Source: Solobacterium sp. (lineage in GTDB: Bacteria > Bacillota_I > Bacilli_A > Erysipelotrichales > Erysipelotrichaceae). Taken from it: a stretch of 44,041 bases of DNA. Positions 20,308 to 28,756 of the stretch are shown piece by piece. The stretch lies in contig JAFUFO010000024.1 of assembly GCA_017469885.1 (NCBI GenBank), positions 1 through 44,041 on the forward strand, given 5' to 3'. Position numbers and translations under genes: made by a program. The stretch's first letter is position 1. Each line of letters begins with the position of its first letter. Below the pieces are notes generated by a model, which searched no databases, was not told the origin of the DNA, and saw only the letters and a program-made list of their open reading frames with translations.

Positions 20308-23300
20308 TCAGTCAAATTTTTTCAGTGCCGTGTATGCTATCAGCGCAACGAGTAATGAAAGTCCTGCCGTAGTCCACCATTTGACATTATTGATTCTGTC
20401 AGACGTATTTGGAATCACTCTCGGCCGTACCGGCGGGATTGTCGGTGTCGATGTCGGCGTGGGCGTGATTATCGGCGTTGAGGTCGGAGTTGGCTCAGGT
20501 GTTGGTGTTGGTGTGGGGTTCGGAGTTGGCGTAGGTGTTGGTGTTGGTGTGGGGCTCGGAGTTGGCGTAGGTGTTGGAGGAATATACGTATTTGTTACTT
20601 TAACAGTCTGAGTATCCTCCGGTTCACCTTTGGATACTTCTATCGTTACGGTATATTCCTTGACGTCATACGTAACGTTTTCAATCGAACCTTTTTCCTC
20701 TTTGACAGAATAGACATATGTACCGGCTGCCGTATAGCTGATTTCGCCGAAACTCTTTGTATGATCTTCATCTGTATTCTTGATTGTGATACTTGTTGCC
20801 TCCGGCATCGGAACTCCGGATTCCGCACTCAGAGTAAATGTGAATTCATCGCTGTCCAGCCAGTTTCTGCCTTCCAGCAGTTTCTGAACGAGGATCTCGC
20901 CTTTTCCTTCAATCCTCTGTCTGTTCAGGATTGTATAACCGCTTTCCGAATCTCCGTCGAGCATTCCGGTATACAGATCTTCTGTTTCAATCGTGATAGT
21001 AACGACCGGTTCTGTATTGCTGACAACGACTTTGTAGACGGTTGTGTTTTCAAGATATAGATCGTCATTTCCGGATGTAAGTTCCTTCATGTAATATGTG
21101 CCGGCTGTCACATCTGTGAACTCAACGATTCCGTCTTCATCTGATTCTGCTGTATACGGCTTATCAAGTCTTTCCGCAGGTTTCGTGCACGCCTTGTCGG
21201 TATACAGTGCGAATTCAGCGCCTTCCAGCGGAATACTGGAAGACTTTTCTTCCTCATCCGTTTCGCCCAGTTTTGTAAAACGGAACGTGTTCAGTTTTGC
21301 AAGACCGACCCCGGTGTAATAGACTTCAGGCACAAATGATACGGCACTCCGTCTTACGGTACCGGATTTATCAACTTTGAAATGCGATTCGGCGACCGCG
21401 TTGCTTATATCGGCATTTTTTATATCATTGCGCCATTTATCTGCAGATGACGGTGTATCAGATTCGATGTGTTCATAATCATAGGCAGTTTCCGCATCCG
21501 ACTTTGTAACAGTCAGAGTATAGTCACCCTTGAGCAGATAAACCGGTCTTCCCTGATCGTCTGTCAGCTTCATGGAGCCATCGCTTCCAACAGGCACCAC
21601 CACAGGAGGAGTTGAGTTATCATCCCGTGAGAGCACGGCAGTAAAGTTTTCTCCGTATCCGTTTTCTGATTCATCAAATTCCGCATTCATATCATCATCA
21701 ATGAATATCTGTCCGAGGAATGTGGCTGAAGACGGGGTCGCTGCGACAACCGGCGTATATTTCCAGTGGTTTGAGCTCTCGCCGAGTTTTGCTCTTCCGT
21801 ATCCTCTCCAGAGATCCATTTCACTGATCTTTGCATTTGGATCAACCGTCATAGAGAACACAGCTTCTCCCGTTTTACCAGGCAGAATATCATCAACCGC
21901 CACAAACTTGACGAGCACTACGTTCTCATAGGAAACGGGTGTCGATGTCCATTCGGCAATTACCGGTTCCCAGCTGTCACGCTCTTCTACCGTGCAGTCG
22001 TCATAGCTATTGGGATTTGATGTGGCACTTACCGCATACCAGGTCTGCCACATTGTCCCGTCACCGACCATTTTGATCGGGCCTGTCAGACTCGCAGTGA
22101 ATTCAAATGGTTTGATAACAGATACATCAGTCGGCGATGCAAGTTCCACGTTGTTAAGATACGAATAACTCGTGCCTTTTTTGGGAATCGGAAGATATAT
22201 GATCGTGTCTTTGAAATATTCAGATTCCGAGTTGGATACATAACTCAGTTTGACTTCAGCAGGCTTTCCTTCATGCACAACGGCAACCGAACTGTCGCCG
22301 CCTGTCCATGTTTTCCAGTCAGCTTCAGGGCTTTCAACAGAACGTATTGCAAGATCCATTCCCAATCCGACAAGCGGCTTGATGAAGAACTGGTTTTTTC
22401 CGATTACAGCCTGATATTCACTGCCTCGGCCCATACGATTGCCGGAATCTTTAACAACATGTGATTCACCGCCGGTTGCGGTATATACTTTTCCGGGTTC
22501 GCCGCCGACATACCAGAGAACACAGTCCTGTGTAAGAAGTGAATACTGCGGACATGTACTTGAAACAACCGCATTAAATCTGACACTGATTTTGTGTTCC
22601 TCTGTTTTTACAGTACCGCCGAAATTGCCGCTGTTCGTACTTTGCTCATTGGCAACCATATCAAGCGGATTCACAGAGGTAAAATCAAAACACTGCCACG
22701 TTGCGCCATCAATCGTAACTTCGCGTGTCGCAAGCCATTTCAGATCGAACCAGCTGTCGTCTTTATGATTGCCGGCAGCAGACTGACCTTCCACGGAATC
22801 CGTATTCAGTTCGATTCCCTTCGGCAGACAGATCGTAATAGTCGGATCGATTGTTGTATCCTGCTCAAATCTCATCGACGCTGCGGACAGTGTCGAGCGG
22901 AAATATAAAACGTCATTGGGATACCAGTTCTGAATATGACTGCCGTCCGGCGAGTCGCTTACGATCGTGGTTGCATAGCCGCCGCCGACTCTATCAAAGC
23001 CAGGCTTAACGCCGGCATGTGCTTCTATCGGCTCCTGTGTCTGAGCATTCTTCGCGGGTGTATCTGTGTAATTGCCTTCTGCATCCAGTTTGACAATCGA
23101 AATGTTCACGCGTCCCGGCGTATTATCGAGATATTGCCCGATAAAACCGATGCCGCCATCCAGATAAGTGGTATCATAGTCCAACTGAGAGACATCTGTT
23201 GTCAGGTATGCTTCGCTGATATATTCACCGGCCTTAAGCCCTATCTCGTTTCCGGCTATCATGTAATTTCCAAAACCGGCGGCTGTGGGAGTAGTTCCAT

Positions 23301-25209
23301 ACGGTCCCGGCAGTTCAATCGTGCGGCCCTCGCTTCCGTCCGCATTAAATGTTTTAATCTTGATGTTTCGAATCTGTTTACCCATCATTCGGAGGCCGGT
23401 AATTCCCAGCTTGTTCTCGTCATTTACGAAATGAAACGGCACACCGTCATAGGCAAAACCGCATTTAAGACCGGTATGAGTGAGCAGGATATCATAATCA
23501 TCCAGACCGTAGTCTTGTTTCAGATCGCGTCTATCTACGTCACTGTCTTTGAGTGTGATCAGATATGATCCCTCTTCAGCACCTACATAAACAGTCCGTG
23601 TATATCTGACCAGGCTAAGCTCCTTTGTTTTATCCATGCGGGTCACCGATCCGGTGGCTGTGATATTGAAGGATTCCGGGTTTTCACCTTTTCCATATAC
23701 TTTCGAGCAATCAGGATGAAAATCAGTTCCGCTTCCTGCTCTGGCCTCAAAGTATACTCTGAACATTTCATCATTGTGTCTGAAGATCTGATGGTCTCCT
23801 GTTATGGTGACTGTCCCGCCGCCGTTCACGGGGTCTTCATCTACGGTATATGTTCCTTTAATCAGTGCGCCTGTCTGGTCAGTGGAGAAGAAAACACCTT
23901 CCGGGTATGTTAATGTCAGAGAATATGTATCACCGAAGGATTTCCAGGCACGGTGAGCTGTTGTGCCGAGATATTGATTTACCCTCCCCTTGATTTCAAA
24001 CCGGACGCTACTAGCGTCTTCCGCAACAGAAAGATTATAAGTCTGGTCCATTGCGGCCATGCCGATTCTCGGAATACTAGAAGCCGTAATATTCACGTCA
24101 GTTTCTTCAACAACAGGCTCTGCTTCCCCTTCCTGCGAGTTAAGCGTCACCTTGATCGGAGGCATTTCTTCTGTTGCACTTGTCCCAGCGCGCGGAAAAA
24201 GTGTCGGCTGCGGACGTACCTGAACAATCAGTTTCACGTTGTCCGCATCCCCGCTCAGGGTGTATGTCAGCTTGCCTGCATAAACCTTTGCTTCATTAGC
24301 GCTCGGATACTCCTCAAGGTACTGCGTTTCCCAGGTATTATCAGAAGTCGCCACCGTTCCGTAAGCAGAAGATCCGGGATTCGGAGCTAATGTTGCAGCC
24401 ACGATCATTTCAGCATATTCCTGATCGATCTTTATATGTGCACCTGCATCCACAGCCACTTCCATTGTTTTCTGGGGAATCGTAATACTATGGTCATCAT
24501 CGGAATCTTTTGCGGAATAACCAATGACTACCCATCCTGCAGGAATGTCCACTACGATGCTTTTTAGGCCGGATGTCTGCGGCATATTTGCAGTGATGGT
24601 TAAAGTTGCTACATGGTCTGCCTGCAGTTGCCCGTTATCCAGTCCGTCAACTGTAACATCCAGCGAGACGGGGTCTCCTGCCGCATTGGCCGGGGCTTTC
24701 CGCACTTCATTTTGTTCAGTGTCTGACTCACTATCGTTGTTCTTTATCACAGGATCTAAATCAACCTGATTCCCAGAATCATCCGAAAGCTCTTCTATTT
24801 GATTACTTTTCGTTTCATAATCAAAACCAGAATCTTTCTGATCCTCAGGATTATCTAAATCAACCTGATTCCCAGAATCATCCGAAAGCTCTTCGATTTG
24901 ATTACTTTCCGTTTCATAATCAAAACCAGAATCTTTCTGATCCTCAGGATTATCTGAAGATTGCCCTGTCTGATTACCTTCGGTATTAACAGAACCATCT
25001 GACACATCAGTGTCATCATCTTGATTTTTGTCGGATGCGTAAGCTTCCGGATCCATGTTACTTTCCTTTTCTTCTGAATCCTGATCAGAAATCTCATTTA
25101 CAGATTCTTCTGGAGGTTGCTGGTCAGTTCCTTCCGCATAAGCAGGGAAGGAACTCATTGCCATAACCATCATCAAGGAAATAAATAATGCAAAAATCTT
25201 TTTTTTCAT
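20308..25209 (-). CDS. Large LPXTG-like surface adhesin with SpaA and FctA-type domains
   Basis: A 1633-residue cell-wall protein. It has a signal peptide (1-25, ending AYA), an acidic low-complexity region with two 33-residue repeats (about 86-152), a long stretch of beta-rich extracellular sequence (about 180-1160), an SdrB/Cna-B-like module (1163-1300), a SpaA/prealbumin-like module (1306-1403; EGAEFALYTDKACTKPA), an FctA-type pilin isopeptide module (1433-1535; KLLEGRNWLDSDEFTFTL), a Pro/Thr spacer (about 1540-1596), the sorting signal IPNTS (1599-1603), a membrane helix and the tail KKFD. IPNTS departs from LPXTG at two positions. GGAG lies 7 nt before the ATG. The promoter region is bounded by inverted repeats next to a serine recombinase, so expression is probably phase-variable. 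No sortase gene is in the window. Confidence 0.9.
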   Translation of the reverse strand: MKKKIFALFISLMMVMAMSSFPAYAEGTDQQPPEESVNEISDQDSEEKESNMDPEAYASDKNQDDDTDVSDGSVNTEGNQTGQSSDNPEDQKDSGFDYETESNQIEELSDDSGNQVDLDNPEDQKDSGFDYETKSNQIEELSDDSGNQVDLDPVIKNNDSESDTEQNEVRKAPANAAGDPVSLDVTVDGLDNGQLQADHVATLTITANMPQTSGLKSIVVDIPAGWVVIGYSAKDSDDDHSITIPQKTMEVAVDAGAHIKIDQEYAEMIVAATLAPNPGSSAYGTVATSDNTWETQYLEEYPSANEAKVYAGKLTYTLSGDADNVKLIVQVRPQPTLFPRAGTSATEEMPPIKVTLNSQEGEAEPVVEETDVNITASSIPRIGMAAMDQTYNLSVAEDASSVRFEIKGRVNQYLGTTAHRAWKSFGDTYSLTLTYPEGVFFSTDQTGALIKGTYTVDEDPVNGGGTVTITGDHQIFRHNDEMFRVYFEARAGSGTDFHPDCSKVYGKGENPESFNITATGSVTRMDKTKELSLVRYTRTVYVGAEEGSYLITLKDSDVDRRDLKQDYGLDDYDILLTHTGLKCGFAYDGVPFHFVNDENKLGITGLRMMGKQIRNIKIKTFNADGSEGRTIELPGPYGTTPTAAGFGNYMIAGNEIGLKAGEYISEAYLTTDVSQLDYDTTYLDGGIGFIGQYLDNTPGRVNISIVKLDAEGNYTDTPAKNAQTQEPIEAHAGVKPGFDRVGGGYATTIVSDSPDGSHIQNWYPNDVLYFRSTLSAASMRFEQDTTIDPTITICLPKGIELNTDSVEGQSAAGNHKDDSWFDLKWLATREVTIDGATWQCFDFTSVNPLDMVANEQSTNSGNFGGTVKTEEHKISVRFNAVVSSTCPQYSLLTQDCVLWYVGGEPGKVYTATGGESHVVKDSGNRMGRGSEYQAVIGKNQFFIKPLVGLGMDLAIRSVESPEADWKTWTGGDSSVAVVHEGKPAEVKLSYVSNSESEYFKDTIIYLPIPKKGTSYSYLNNVELASPTDVSVIKPFEFTASLTGPIKMVGDGTMWQTWYAVSATSNPNSYDDCTVEERDSWEPVIAEWTSTPVSYENVVLVKFVAVDDILPGKTGEAVFSMTVDPNAKISEMDLWRGYGRAKLGESSNHWKYTPVVAATPSSATFLGQIFIDDDMNAEFDESENGYGENFTAVLSRDDNSTPPVVVPVGSDGSMKLTDDQGRPVYLLKGDYTLTVTKSDAETAYDYEHIESDTPSSADKWRNDIKNADISNAVAESHFKVDKSGTVRRSAVSFVPEVYYTGVGLAKLNTFRFTKLGETDEEEKSSSIPLEGAEFALYTDKACTKPAERLDKPYTAESDEDGIVEFTDVTAGTYYMKELTSGNDDLYLENTTVYKVVVSNTEPVVTITIETEDLYTGMLDGDSESGYTILNRQRIEGKGEILVQKLLEGRNWLDSDEFTFTLSAESGVPMPEATSITIKNTDEDHTKSFGEISYTAAGTYVYSVKEEKGSIENVTYDVKEYTVTIEVSKGEPEDTQTVKVTNTYIPPTPTPTPSPTPTPTPTPTPNPTPTPTPEPTPTSTPIITPTPTSTPTIPPVRPRVIPNTSDRINNVKWWTTAGLSLLVALIAYTALKKFD
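20425..20585. repeat. Pro-Thr coding minisatellite in the adhesin spacer
   Basis: Short degenerate repeats of the GGTGTTGGTGTTGG type (plus strand) encode the Pro-Thr wall-spanning spacer of the adhesin, with a longer unit GGGCTCGGAGTTGGCGTAGG-like occurring twice. Such tracts are prone to length change by slippage. Confidence 0.75.
24754..24952. repeat. Two 99-bp direct repeats in the adhesin N-terminal region
   Basis: Two adjacent copies with a period of exactly 99 bp (for example the C at 24756 and 24855) differ at only a few positions and encode 33 residues each, containing NQIEELSDDSGNQVDLD. The near identity indicates a recent duplication; loss or gain would keep the frame. Confidence 0.9.
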
Positions 25210-25229
25210 AACCGATCTCCAAAAAGCAA

Positions 25230-25252
25230 TTTTGAAAGGTGTACCTTTCCAA
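25230..25252 (+). repeat. Left inverted repeat (putative recombination site)
   Basis: A 23-bp site centred on a GT core (25241-25242), itself nearly palindromic (AAAGGT-GT-ACCTTT). It matches the complement of 25372-25394 at 19 of 23 positions without gaps. It lies 21 bp upstream of the adhesin start, beyond its ribosome site. Confidence 0.7.
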
Positions 25253-25381
25253 CTCTTCAGATCGGGTTACGATTTTTGCCTGCGAAGGCATGCAGTTTTT
25301 ATTGTGTTTATTTATATAATCTATTAGTATGAATTTGTATTTTTTTAAAGAAGCATTTTGGGATTCTTGCTTTGCAAAAGT
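25243..25381. other. Putative invertible promoter segment of the adhesin
   Basis: 139 bp between the GT cores of two inverted repeats, between the adhesin start and the end of a serine recombinase gene. It is AT-rich. A perfect TATAAT (25315-25320) reads on the plus strand, away from the adhesin, while TATAAA/TATATA-like sequence in the same place reads toward it; no good -35 is visible in either direction. Recombination between the repeats would flip this DNA and leave the adhesin's ribosome site and coding region unchanged. The current state (on or off) cannot be told. Confidence 0.6.
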
Positions 25382-25394
25382 ACACAATTCAAAA
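25372..25394 (-). repeat. Right inverted repeat (putative recombination site)
   Basis: Read on the minus strand, it starts TTTTGAATTGTGTAC and matches the left repeat at 19 of 23 positions, with the GT core at 25383-25382. It lies 16 bp beyond the stop of the recombinase gene. Confidence 0.7.
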
Positions 25395-25409
25395 ACTGAC
25401 ATAAAGTCT

Positions 25410-26036
<627 letters not shown>

Positions 26037-26210: not shown

Positions 26211-26213
26211 CAT

Positions 26214-26249
26214 AAAAAACACGTCCGAAATATAGAACAGAATCGGACG
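26214..26249 (-). terminator. Terminator of the HIRAN operon
   Basis: On the minus strand CGTCCGA (26249-26243) pairs with TCGGACG (26228-26222) across a 14-nt loop, followed by a T-run (26219-26214). It separates the HIRAN operon from the recombinase. Confidence 0.8.
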
Positions 26250-26276
26250 CAGTGTCGCAAATATATCTCCTTTTAA

Positions 26277-26669
26277 TCAGTAATCCACCAGATAAATACC
26301 GATCCGCACACGGTAGAAGCCGTTTTGGTTTATGACCGATATCACCTTTGCGATCAACAGTTTCCCCGCATCTATCAGGCGGGAGAATACCTGATTGTCC
26401 CGTTCCGGTACATAACCGAGTTTCTGTTTCTGTGCATTCAGAATCAGTATGGCTCTTTCATCGAATTTGTTTTCTTCTCTCTGCAGGACCAGCTTCTCAT
26501 TGACTTCCAGGGCATCATATACCGAAGGGTCTTTGATATAGCTTGTCCCGGCAATCACGGTGTCAAACAGGTAGATTTCATTCACCAGAGGTTTAATGAT
26601 CTCACCCAGGCTCTTTTCTTCCACCACCGCAAGCAGGTCATCATTCTTAATTGTCAGTTCATTTCTCAT
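26277..26669 (-). CDS. HIRAN-domain protein (last gene of the four-gene operon)
   Basis: A 130-residue protein. Residues about 35-115 match the HIRAN domain, a small beta-barrel that in SWI2/SNF2-type proteins binds 3' DNA ends: TSYIKDPSVYDAL, then REENKFDERAI and GYVPERDNQVFSRLIDAG. The first 30 residues are a short helical extension. No enzymatic domain is attached, so it is a stand-alone HIRAN module. The start overlaps the preceding gene's stop by 4 bp. A second, different HIRAN protein opens the same operon. Function unknown; roles in DNA-damage or phage response are possible from the domain only. Confidence 0.85.
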   Translation of the reverse strand: MRNELTIKNDDLLAVVEEKSLGEIIKPLVNEIYLFDTVIAGTSYIKDPSVYDALEVNEKLVLQREENKFDERAILILNAQKQKLGYVPERDNQVFSRLIDAGKLLIAKVISVINQNGFYRVRIGIYLVDY

Positions 26670-27433
26670 GCGTACATCTCCTTTACCGGAAAGTTCTTCA
26701 GCACCTCGTCCAGTTCCGCGGAATACTGCATGTACTCCTCGATTTCATTCTGCAGTTCTTCCAGTTTCCGGTTCACCTGCACATCATCTTCCAGCAGGAA
26801 ACGATAGGTATACGGTGTCGTGGAAATGATCCGCTCAATTTCCTTCTCCGTACGCGCAATCTTCTTCTCGATATCCGGAATCATCGATTTCTCTGTATCG
26901 ATTCCGTTATCTGAAAGATAGGCATTTACCAGCACTTCCAGCTCCTGCAGTTTCTCCAGGCAGTTATACCGGTAGGCATTCACGATCCGGTTCCAGTACT
27001 CCAGCAGTTTCGGATCATTACTGGTTTCCGGCCGCATATCCGGATGAATCTTCCGTGCCAGCCGATAGTAGATTTCCCGGATCTTCCGGACATCCTCTCT
27101 GGAAATGATCTTCGCGTTCTGAGCCGCCTTCGCTTCCTCTTTCATACGGTTCAGCTCCGCTTCATACTCTGCCATTTCCGCATCGATATGACTGTACAGT
27201 TCAACCGCATTAATGGTCTTCCCCTGGTTGACGCAGCGCTGGCAGAAGGCAATCATCTTTTTCTTCCGGATACATTCAATCTTCTTCCGGAATGCCTCCG
27301 CCAGCTGGTCTCCGAACAGTCTCATGTAGTCCACGTAAAACTGCGCTGCTTCCCTCCGCAGATTCTCTTTCTTCAGTATCAGTTCCTCATACAGGATGTA
27401 AGACGCATTTGTACTCTTAATCAACTCTGTCAT
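26666..27433 (-). CDS. J-domain-like helical protein
   Basis: A 255-residue, strongly charged, largely coiled-coil protein. Residues about 112-165 resemble a J domain: an IREIYYRLARK helix, the HPD motif at 130-132, and a following helix (LEYWNRIVNAYR). A true J domain would stimulate an Hsp70 (DnaK) ATPase; here it sits inside long helices, as in J-like proteins of unknown role. The N-terminal region has a CQRC pair (64-67) without a second pair. The gene overlaps the upstream SEL1 gene by 17 bp and the downstream HIRAN gene by 4 bp, so expression is coupled. Function unknown. Confidence 0.82.
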   Translation of the reverse strand: MTELIKSTNASYILYEELILKKENLRREAAQFYVDYMRLFGDQLAEAFRKKIECIRKKKMIAFCQRCVNQGKTINAVELYSHIDAEMAEYEAELNRMKEEAKAAQNAKIISREDVRKIREIYYRLARKIHPDMRPETSNDPKLLEYWNRIVNAYRYNCLEKLQELEVLVNAYLSDNGIDTEKSMIPDIEKKIARTEKEIERIISTTPYTYRFLLEDDVQVNRKLEELQNEIEEYMQYSAELDEVLKNFPVKEMYA

Positions 27434-28316
27434 GGCTCACCTCCACGTTGTAGATTTCCCAATAACGGACATACAGCGGTTTCCCGTCAAGCTTTGCGTT
27501 CCGGAACAGTTCATTCACGGAACGGTACCAGTGTCCGTCAAAGCACACTACATACTCCCCGTTATCAATTTCCGAATGAATCTCATATTTCTTCTGTCTG
27601 TATCGGAATGTCACGGTGCACGGTTTCTTCAGCACATAGAACAGATCAAAGATATCCAGATTGGAATAATCCGGTTCAATCAGGGAATACAGGTCATTGA
27701 TCAGCCAGTCCATGACGTTGATGTCGCCGAAGAACTCCAGCAGCCGCATCCGCTCCGGAAGATCATCTTTTGCCATCTGATAGAGACGGACGGCCTCCTC
27801 GATGTTTCCTTCCTTCTTCCGGATGTCCGCCAGTCTTGTACAGATATCCGGAAGTTCGAGAAACCTGCGTTCATCATCCTTGTGTGCTTCATACAGCTCT
27901 TCGATGATCGAACAGTATTTTGCATAATCCGGTTCCACGAAATACCCGTTTTTGTACATGTCCGCAAGCTTCCGCTTTCCCTCGTCATTTCCAAGCGCTG
28001 CGGCTTCCGAAAAATAGCGGAATGCCTTCTCGTAATCCACCGTCCCGGTGCGGCCGTAATACCAGATATAGCCAAGGCATACCGCAATATCATGGTCGCC
28101 CAGTTCATAGGTCATCTCATAATACTTCAGCGCAAGATCAAACTGGCGGCGGTCATAGTAATACGACCCAAGATCACTGCTGTACCAGGGATCCTTTGTC
28201 TGGTTCAGAAGATACTCGGTCACTTCAAACAGTGCATCCTCATGTTCATGATTGTTCTGCCAGTGAATCTCTTCCTTATACTGTTCGTAACGTTTTCTGG
28301 CTTCCTCTACGGTCAT
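27417..28316 (-). CDS. SEL1/TPR-repeat protein
   Basis: A 299-residue soluble protein. Residues about 55-195 are SEL1-like helical repeats (YYDRRQFDLALKYYEMTYEL, AFRYFSEAAALGNDEGKRKLAD, EAVRLYQMAK). The C-terminal ~90 residues are beta-rich (TVTFRYRQKKYEIHSEID, YVVCFDGHWYRSVNELF) and may form a separate small domain. No signal peptide is present. SEL1 repeats are protein-binding scaffolds, so it probably links the J-like and HIRAN partners of its operon, which is inference. It begins 20 nt after the first HIRAN gene and overlaps the J-like gene. Confidence 0.85.
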   Translation of the reverse strand: MTVEEARKRYEQYKEEIHWQNNHEHEDALFEVTEYLLNQTKDPWYSSDLGSYYYDRRQFDLALKYYEMTYELGDHDIAVCLGYIWYYGRTGTVDYEKAFRYFSEAAALGNDEGKRKLADMYKNGYFVEPDYAKYCSIIEELYEAHKDDERRFLELPDICTRLADIRKKEGNIEEAVRLYQMAKDDLPERMRLLEFFGDINVMDWLINDLYSLIEPDYSNLDIFDLFYVLKKPCTVTFRYRQKKYEIHSEIDNGEYVVCFDGHWYRSVNELFRNAKLDGKPLYVRYWEIYNVEVSHDRVD

Positions 28317-28336
28317 TCCGTTCCTCCTGTTCTGTT

Positions 28337-28648
28337 TCAGTGTTCGGTTTCTGTTTCCCCGTTCACAAGTTCTGCGATCGCAACATCCTCAAGCCGGAAA
28401 CGGACAATGCATTTTGTTTCCTGATCAAAGTCCCGGTAAATATATCCGGCAGAGTGGGTTCCTCTTGCGACAGTGGAAGAGCTGTTTGCGGCATAGCCGT
28501 ACTTTGCGCCGTTTGAAGAATAGACCGCAATGGCCTCATCATCGTACTCATTGGGTTCCTTCTTCAGGATCAGCGTATTGCCCGGATGGACAAAGGACGC
28601 CGCCATAAAGTCATCCAGATGCGAAATCGTAATAAATGTCTGTTTCAT
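28337..28648 (-). CDS. HIRAN-domain protein (first gene of the four-gene operon)
   Basis: A 103-residue protein that is nearly all HIRAN domain (about 1-92): KKEPNEYDDEAIAV, then GYAANSSSTVARGTHSAG, the variant common in stand-alone Firmicute HIRAN proteins. GAGGT lies 8 nt before the ATG. It is only distantly similar to the HIRAN protein at the other end of the operon, so this is not a recent duplication. Read-through from upstream is limited by the terminator at 28691-28722. Confidence 0.85.
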   Translation of the reverse strand: MKQTFITISHLDDFMAASFVHPGNTLILKKEPNEYDDEAIAVYSSNGAKYGYAANSSSTVARGTHSAGYIYRDFDQETKCIVRFRLEDVAIAELVNGETETEH

Positions 28649-28690: not shown

Positions 28691-28722
28691 AAAAAATGCG
28701 CCAGTATTCAAACTGACGCATT
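28691..28722 (-). terminator. Terminator of the InlB-repeat protein gene
   Basis: On the minus strand AATGCGTCAGT (28722-28712) pairs with ACTGGCGCATT (28705-28695), including one wobble pair, followed by six T. Confidence 0.85.
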
Positions 28723-28756
28723 CATTTCATGCAAATTGTATTGCCGGTTATTTCAA

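Follow-up and report, generated by a model that had tools for sequence, protein, structure and literature searches.

Four minus-strand genes, designated A, B, C and D, occupy positions 26277-28648 of the window, that is, of the whole stretch of Solobacterium sp. DNA that was analysed (44,041 nucleotides). The features of the locus are as follows.

28694-28723, minus strand: intrinsic terminator of the gene upstream of A (12-bp stem, T-rich tail), which forms the 5′ bound of the operon
28337-28648, minus strand: gene A, small stand-alone HIRAN-like protein of 103 aa, an optional part
27417-28316, minus strand: gene B, SEL1/TPR protein of 299 aa with a solenoid (~1-210) and a C-terminal beta domain (~222-299)
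26666-27433, minus strand: gene C, J-domain protein of 255 aa with a coiled coil, a J core and C-terminal helices
26277-26669, minus strand: gene D, HIRAN protein (130 aa) whose N-terminal extension is conserved, an obligate-looking partner of C
~26212-26252, minus strand: probable terminator after D (7-8 bp GC stem and T6, with a 14-nt loop)

Genes A and B are separated by a gap of 20 bp, B and C overlap by 17 bp, and C and D by 4 bp (ATGA). This minus-strand layout, the sizes of the gap and overlaps and the terminators on both sides are exactly as the original prediction gave them. The stem-loop after D, whose loop of 14 exceeds the limits of the terminator scanner, has a minimum free energy of -17.5 against a shuffle mean of -12.5 (z -2.0). 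In the upstream regions of 121 related operons, LexA boxes are not enriched (exact matches in 2/121 versus 1/327 controls), and the operon is marked by neither CIRCE nor CtsR sites.

Purifying selection acts on each of the four genes, with dN/dS values of 0.04-0.23 against their nearest relatives (unsaturated estimates only). The notion that they are chance neighbours or miscalled reading frames could appeal to the scores of A and C, which singly fall below the Pfam cut-offs, and to the codon usage of the window, which yields long ORFs on both strands. It is refuted by the comparative data and retains a negligible probability: frame and order are conserved, with the dN/dS values given above, and the module is not a product of chance since about 100 other loci preserve it as a unit. 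As a separate observation, D differs from its counterpart in the nearest relative of the locus (L051) with a pS of 0.31, while the values for A to C are only 0.04-0.08, as if recombination had replaced D.

The make-up of the module varies between genomes. Among 129 distinct loci carrying C, the arrangements are BCD (52), CD (30), C alone (20), CDB (8), BBCD (6), ABCD (4) and minor forms. Gene D lies directly downstream of C in 107 of them, mostly with overlaps of 4 or 13-16 bp, and a SEL1 gene belongs to the cluster in 78. In the family to which the window belongs, 28 of 273 genomes hold both a D-type HIRAN (counted at E<=1e-20) and C, 2 hold D only, 4 hold C only and 239 neither; one of the two D-only genomes is a fragment, and in one of the four C-only genomes the gene sits at a contig end. 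The corresponding Fisher p value is 1.2e-31, a figure that overstates independence given the kinship of the genomes. Pairwise divergences are also correlated (C-D r=0.60, B-D 0.44, B-C 0.38), beyond permutation maxima of 0.17-0.29. By contrast with this recurrent set, A precedes B at only five Solobacterium loci, and also at L080, there without C; one locus with C (L072) belongs to a genome that has no HIRAN gene anywhere. Given the cluster counts, the co-occurrence and the correlated distances, the core is J protein plus HIRAN, SEL1 is the usual third part, and A, being limited to a few Solobacterium genomes, is an addition. The recurrent module that had been predicted thus exists, in the strong association of C with D, although not as a fixed set of four genes.

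Carriers of the module number more than 100 gut or rumen bacteria, with a patchy distribution and with flanks that differ at most loci. Within the family of the window, 32 of 273 genomes and 13 of 60 genera possess C. A scan of named genomes gave 78 C loci, almost all from gut or rumen sources, in Solobacterium, other Erysipelotrichaceae, Lachnospiraceae, Ruminococcus and Oscillospiraceae, and with a few MAG labels (Planctomycetaceae, Chloroflexi, Thermoguttaceae) that may be binning errors. Examples are Butyrivibrio sp. CB08 (Lachnospiraceae) and R. flavefaciens YRD2003, both of which have the B-C-D arrangement; among 391 genomes sampled from the class to which the Butyrivibrio genome belongs, 30 contain C.

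Several lines of evidence identify C as a J-domain protein. Its match to Pfam DnaJ (PF00226) covers model positions 13-51 of 63 and stays below the gathering cut-off (E=6.6e-5, 23.4 bits versus 27.8). A profile of the C family matches DnaJ-family structures in the PDB over residues 113-156, the best being DnaJ-A3 at 6e-6. In class-wide genome scans, residues 110-155 of the same profile recover DnaJ-length ORFs (~375 aa) from most genomes, and in the genome of the window the profile matches a 422-aa ORF at C7:120747, the dnaJ hit. That ORF adjoins dnaK (C7:117579-119300), the only strong Hsp70 match of the genome. The HPD motif is invariant in all 67 C proteins compared, and the canonical J-core residues Y122, A153 and Y154 are also kept in the family. 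The AF2 model of C (pLDDT 91, pTM 0.81) places a helix at 112-129, HPD at 130-132 and a second helix at 141-155, so that J helices II and III are present while helix I does not occupy its customary position; this J core (112-155) follows an antiparallel coiled coil of 105 residues (2-106). When the whole model was submitted to a fold search, coiled coils swamped the matches listed, and no J domain was among them. Judged by sequence and predicted secondary structure, C is a genuine J-domain protein, and the J-like segment suspected earlier can be read as a J domain on account of its invariant HPD, the confidently modelled helix-HPD-helix and the DnaJ profile matches.

Some homologues of C differ in form. 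Those at L259 (2662-3876) and L261 (4340-5536) are longer at the N terminus by about 130-160 residues, which look like a real additional domain; apparent N-terminal extensions at several other loci look like start-codon artefacts of the ORF caller and were set aside. In large Clostridia genomes (L275-L281), a distant relative of C occurs without HIRAN after a conserved pair of ~580-aa proteins (cluster m0), and probably represents a separate subfamily.

Protein B reaches the Pfam Sel1 model above its cut-off (E=9e-9, 36 bits versus 30.7). Its AF2 model (pLDDT 94) shows the Sel1/TPR solenoid, which superposes on the Sel1 structure 6ok3 with a Z of 14.3 and an rmsd of 4.0 over 202 aligned residues, and the beta domain behind it; the predicted SEL1 protein with a beta-rich C-terminal domain is thus borne out. 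At some divergent loci, a short SEL1 gene lacking the C-terminal beta domain lies downstream of D. HIRAN-SEL1 pairs are also found with no J gene, at L080 (2083-6712, A-type and B) and L086 (8509-9833, D-type and B), which suggests that HIRAN and SEL1 form a functional pair as well.

The HIRAN assignment of D is clear. D consists of the HIRAN domain alone, with no fused SNF2 ATPase; it matches Pfam HIRAN (PF08797) at E=1e-13 (51.4 bits, above the gathering cut-off of 24.7), and its profile finds PDB entry 3k2y (1.6e-14) and, more weakly, human HLTF (7e-4). Protein A, at 1.9e-4 and 21.6 bits, lies below the same cut-off. The profile of its family, which is small, nevertheless matches 3k2y (2.5e-6) and HLTF (4e-3), and comparison of the A and D profiles by hhalign gives 97%; A is therefore homologous to HIRAN but divergent. 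Two different stand-alone HIRAN proteins had been proposed for this operon, and both are recovered, A through profiles.

Across the 42 D proteins compared, R64 and G85 never vary and F or Y stands at position 69 throughout (42/42); D70 is found in 39/42 and N67 in 37/42. We take position 69 to occupy the place of HLTF Y93. The equivalents of HLTF R71 and Y72 are presumably S/T43 and H/Y/F44, and that of the basic position E89. In HLTF, Y72 and Y93 form the pair that stacks on the dinucleotide (PMC4666394). From its sequence, D is a true HIRAN protein with an apparently only partly conserved DNA pocket, in which the R, N, F/Y and D positions are kept and the equivalents of R-Y and K are not; the DNA-binding residues anticipated in the original prediction are accordingly present in part. 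On these residues, DNA binding by D would be plausible. Characterised members of the HIRAN family bind DNA ends (PMC8262856, PMC4666394), and bacterial HIRAN proteins have been termed uncharacterised (PMC11090510).

Bacterial HIRANs have also been proposed as putative antitoxins, as for HipN beside HipI kinases (PMC8262856), and HIRAN-HipA-diDNase clusters exist (PMC11706625), so that one could conceive of the operon as regulatory or toxin-antitoxin-like, with HIRAN acting as antitoxin or repressor. This idea was rejected as very improbable: A to D contain neither a HipA-like kinase nor any further toxin family, D has no match to a HipS-like domain, and B and C have no catalytic domain. The HipIN variant of this idea was rejected, there being no kinase match among the four proteins.

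A clue to function comes from gene neighbourhoods. At three loci (L127-L129), C and D lie directly upstream of addB-addA-like genes; at L131, C alone occupies this position, and at L130 the order is addB-addA-yjeF-C. These five loci all belong to one family of the class. In Lachnoclostridium sp. UBA1781 (L206, 3471-7896), B-C-D is followed directly by sbcD-sbcC; in L072 (9320-13542), an unrelated genome, sbcD-sbcC directly precedes C; and at L059, sbcC lies just upstream of a SEL1-J-HIRAN cluster. Counting the addAB family once, three independent direct linkages are observed against about 0.2 expected (Poisson p ~0.0015), where the expectation is a rough estimate for two operons and the linkage was spotted after the fact. 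At most loci the neighbours are unrelated genes, and the sbcCD links are few. This operon-like linkage to the genes of the DNA-end nucleases AddAB or SbcCD in three lineages is suggestive, and is the only clue to mechanism that the context provides.

Co-chaperones of the J-domain type are known to aim DnaK at DNA machinery, as DnaJ does with lambda P/DnaB, and CbpA is a further case. Against this background, we tentatively propose as the most economical mechanism, at somewhat less than an even chance, that C and D, usually joined by B, form one complex that senses a DNA end or fork and recruits DnaK. D, with A as a second sensor in the present operon, would recognise a DNA structure whose end is free or stalled. 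The complex and its client would be kept together by the solenoid of B and by the long coiled coil of C, while the HPD-bearing J core would recruit the host DnaK. At the expense of ATP, DnaK would then disassemble or free the proteins at the DNA site, for example blocked or stalled replication or repair complexes, and the cleared site could be acted upon by enzymes that process ends, AddAB or SbcCD for instance. On a bolder reading, which is somewhat less probable, the module would be a new type of bacterial machine, an end or fork sensor for which the general Hsp70, DnaK, serves in trans as the remodelling motor, a task otherwise given to a helicase or translocase of its own. The proposal builds on the conserved linkage, co-occurrence and correlated divergence of the genes, the J core and its HPD, the HIRAN and SEL1 folds, the purifying selection, the single housekeeping dnaK-dnaJ pair as available partner and the AddAB/SbcCD linkage. 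Against it count the restriction of the addAB cases to one family and the small number of sbcCD links, the unrelated neighbours at most loci, the L072 genome with its C but no HIRAN, the pocket positions of D that apparently depart from those of HLTF, and the lack of LexA, CIRCE or CtsR sites at the operon. From the invariance of HPD in C we infer recruitment of DnaK, and from the HIRAN family and the addAB/sbcCD linkages the DNA step; the physical complex and the identity of the client are conjectural.

The main rival keeps the chaperone part and dispenses with DNA. Here B and C would bring clients to DnaK as a specialised quality-control co-chaperone, and D would be a protein- or peptide-binding beta-barrel. 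The strong J features of C and the nature of SEL1 solenoids, which are protein-binding scaffolds, fit such a role; moreover, the HLTF-like basic and aromatic pocket residues of D are not all retained, and the DNA-related neighbourhood is not consistent across loci. This explanation is nonetheless rather unlikely, as D is by profile a clear member of a family whose characterised representatives bind DNA ends (PMC8262856, PMC4666394), the addAB/sbcCD linkage is repeated, and the upstream regions have no CIRCE or CtsR heat-shock site.

Comparison with known systems places the proposed DnaK-recruiting sensor among the J co-chaperones. C shares with DnaJ and CbpA the J core with its invariant HPD and would, like them, act via host DnaK on protein-DNA complexes; it differs in that the core is embedded in a coiled-coil protein that has neither G/F nor zinc domains, and in being genetically tied to a stand-alone HIRAN and a SEL1 scaffold. 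With HipI-HipN/HipL and HIRAN-HipA-diDNase (PMC8262856, PMC11706625; PADLOC PDC-M03), the module has in common a stand-alone or fused HIRAN, likely DNA-end-binding, in an accessory operon, and PDC-M03B has a HIRAN part that D matches; unlike those systems, the module lacks a Hip kinase, a HipS domain and a diDNase, and has J and SEL1 partners instead. The likeness to HLTF/Rad5 lies in the HIRAN fold (7e-4) and in the idea of a remodelling ATPase brought to 3′ ends, whereas D has no SNF2 motor or RING, several of its presumed DNA-contact residues differ, and DnaK would have to be recruited in trans. The closest solved HIRAN to D is lp_0118 of Lactobacillus plantarum (PDB 3k2y), which differs in being an uncharacterised single protein.

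In the open-access PMC literature, no description of a J, HIRAN and SEL1 combination was found, in line with the earlier statement that no such system is described. Within it, 'HIRAN domain' and 'DnaJ' occur together in a single paper, which apparently concerns 2-nonanone sensitivity in cyanobacteria and not such a system. The composition of the module is new, and its proposed working is a variant of that of specialised J-protein co-chaperones. To our knowledge, the stable operon of HIRAN and J protein offers the first concrete, testable partner for HIRAN outside the Hip kinases. If the proposal holds, the module would link the processing of DNA ends in gut and rumen Firmicutes with Hsp70 chaperones; being compact (three genes), widespread and expressible as a unit, it makes the idea directly testable.

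The surroundings of the operon bear on a further explanation, namely an accessory system against phages (or plasmids), which would detect the ends of invading DNA or intermediates of replication and have DnaK disassemble them. The original prediction had leaned towards defence or stress because of a neighbouring recombinase and mobile remnants. The operon of L051 shows 97% identity, and an ATC-hydrolase gene lies 130 bp beyond it. In the window, the interval between operon and ATC-hydrolase gene (20308-26018) contains two genes, one for a resolvase (25410-26018) and one for a surface protein of 1633 aa that bears repeats and a Thr-Pro stalk. Both the resolvase and this adhesin are absent from the same place in L051, which amounts to a lineage-specific indel of ~5.5 kb; the resolvase is therefore not part of the module, and was either inserted independently or lost in L051. 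The patchy spread, the differing flanks and the resemblance of D to one half, the HIRAN half, of PDC-M03B (a PADLOC candidate) would suit a defence function, as would a few single neighbours that are defence genes (AbiEi, BrxA, LmuA, a Type I MTase). The immediate neighbours as a whole (143 gene positions) are, however, mostly housekeeping or unique genes. They hit 39 PADLOC families versus 105 for 128 control genes and so show no enrichment, in a crude comparison that counts families and whose controls, drawn from such genomes, are inflated by generic ATPase families. Among the core genes there is no recognisable effector (nuclease, NADase, kinase or pore), and relatives of C are absent from the viral contigs and from the plasmid collection searched. 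With neither the recombinase in L051, nor PADLOC enrichment, nor a viral-contig relative to sustain it, the inference of a mobile defence island is not supported; the defence explanation is unlikely, and weaker than the quality-control one. The one matching record in the phage collection, of 1,993 bases, aligns with part of the SEL1 solenoid only. At one locus (L187, 603-3761), C and D lie directly downstream of a 1053-aa fusion of a protein kinase, a STAND NTPase and TPR repeats.
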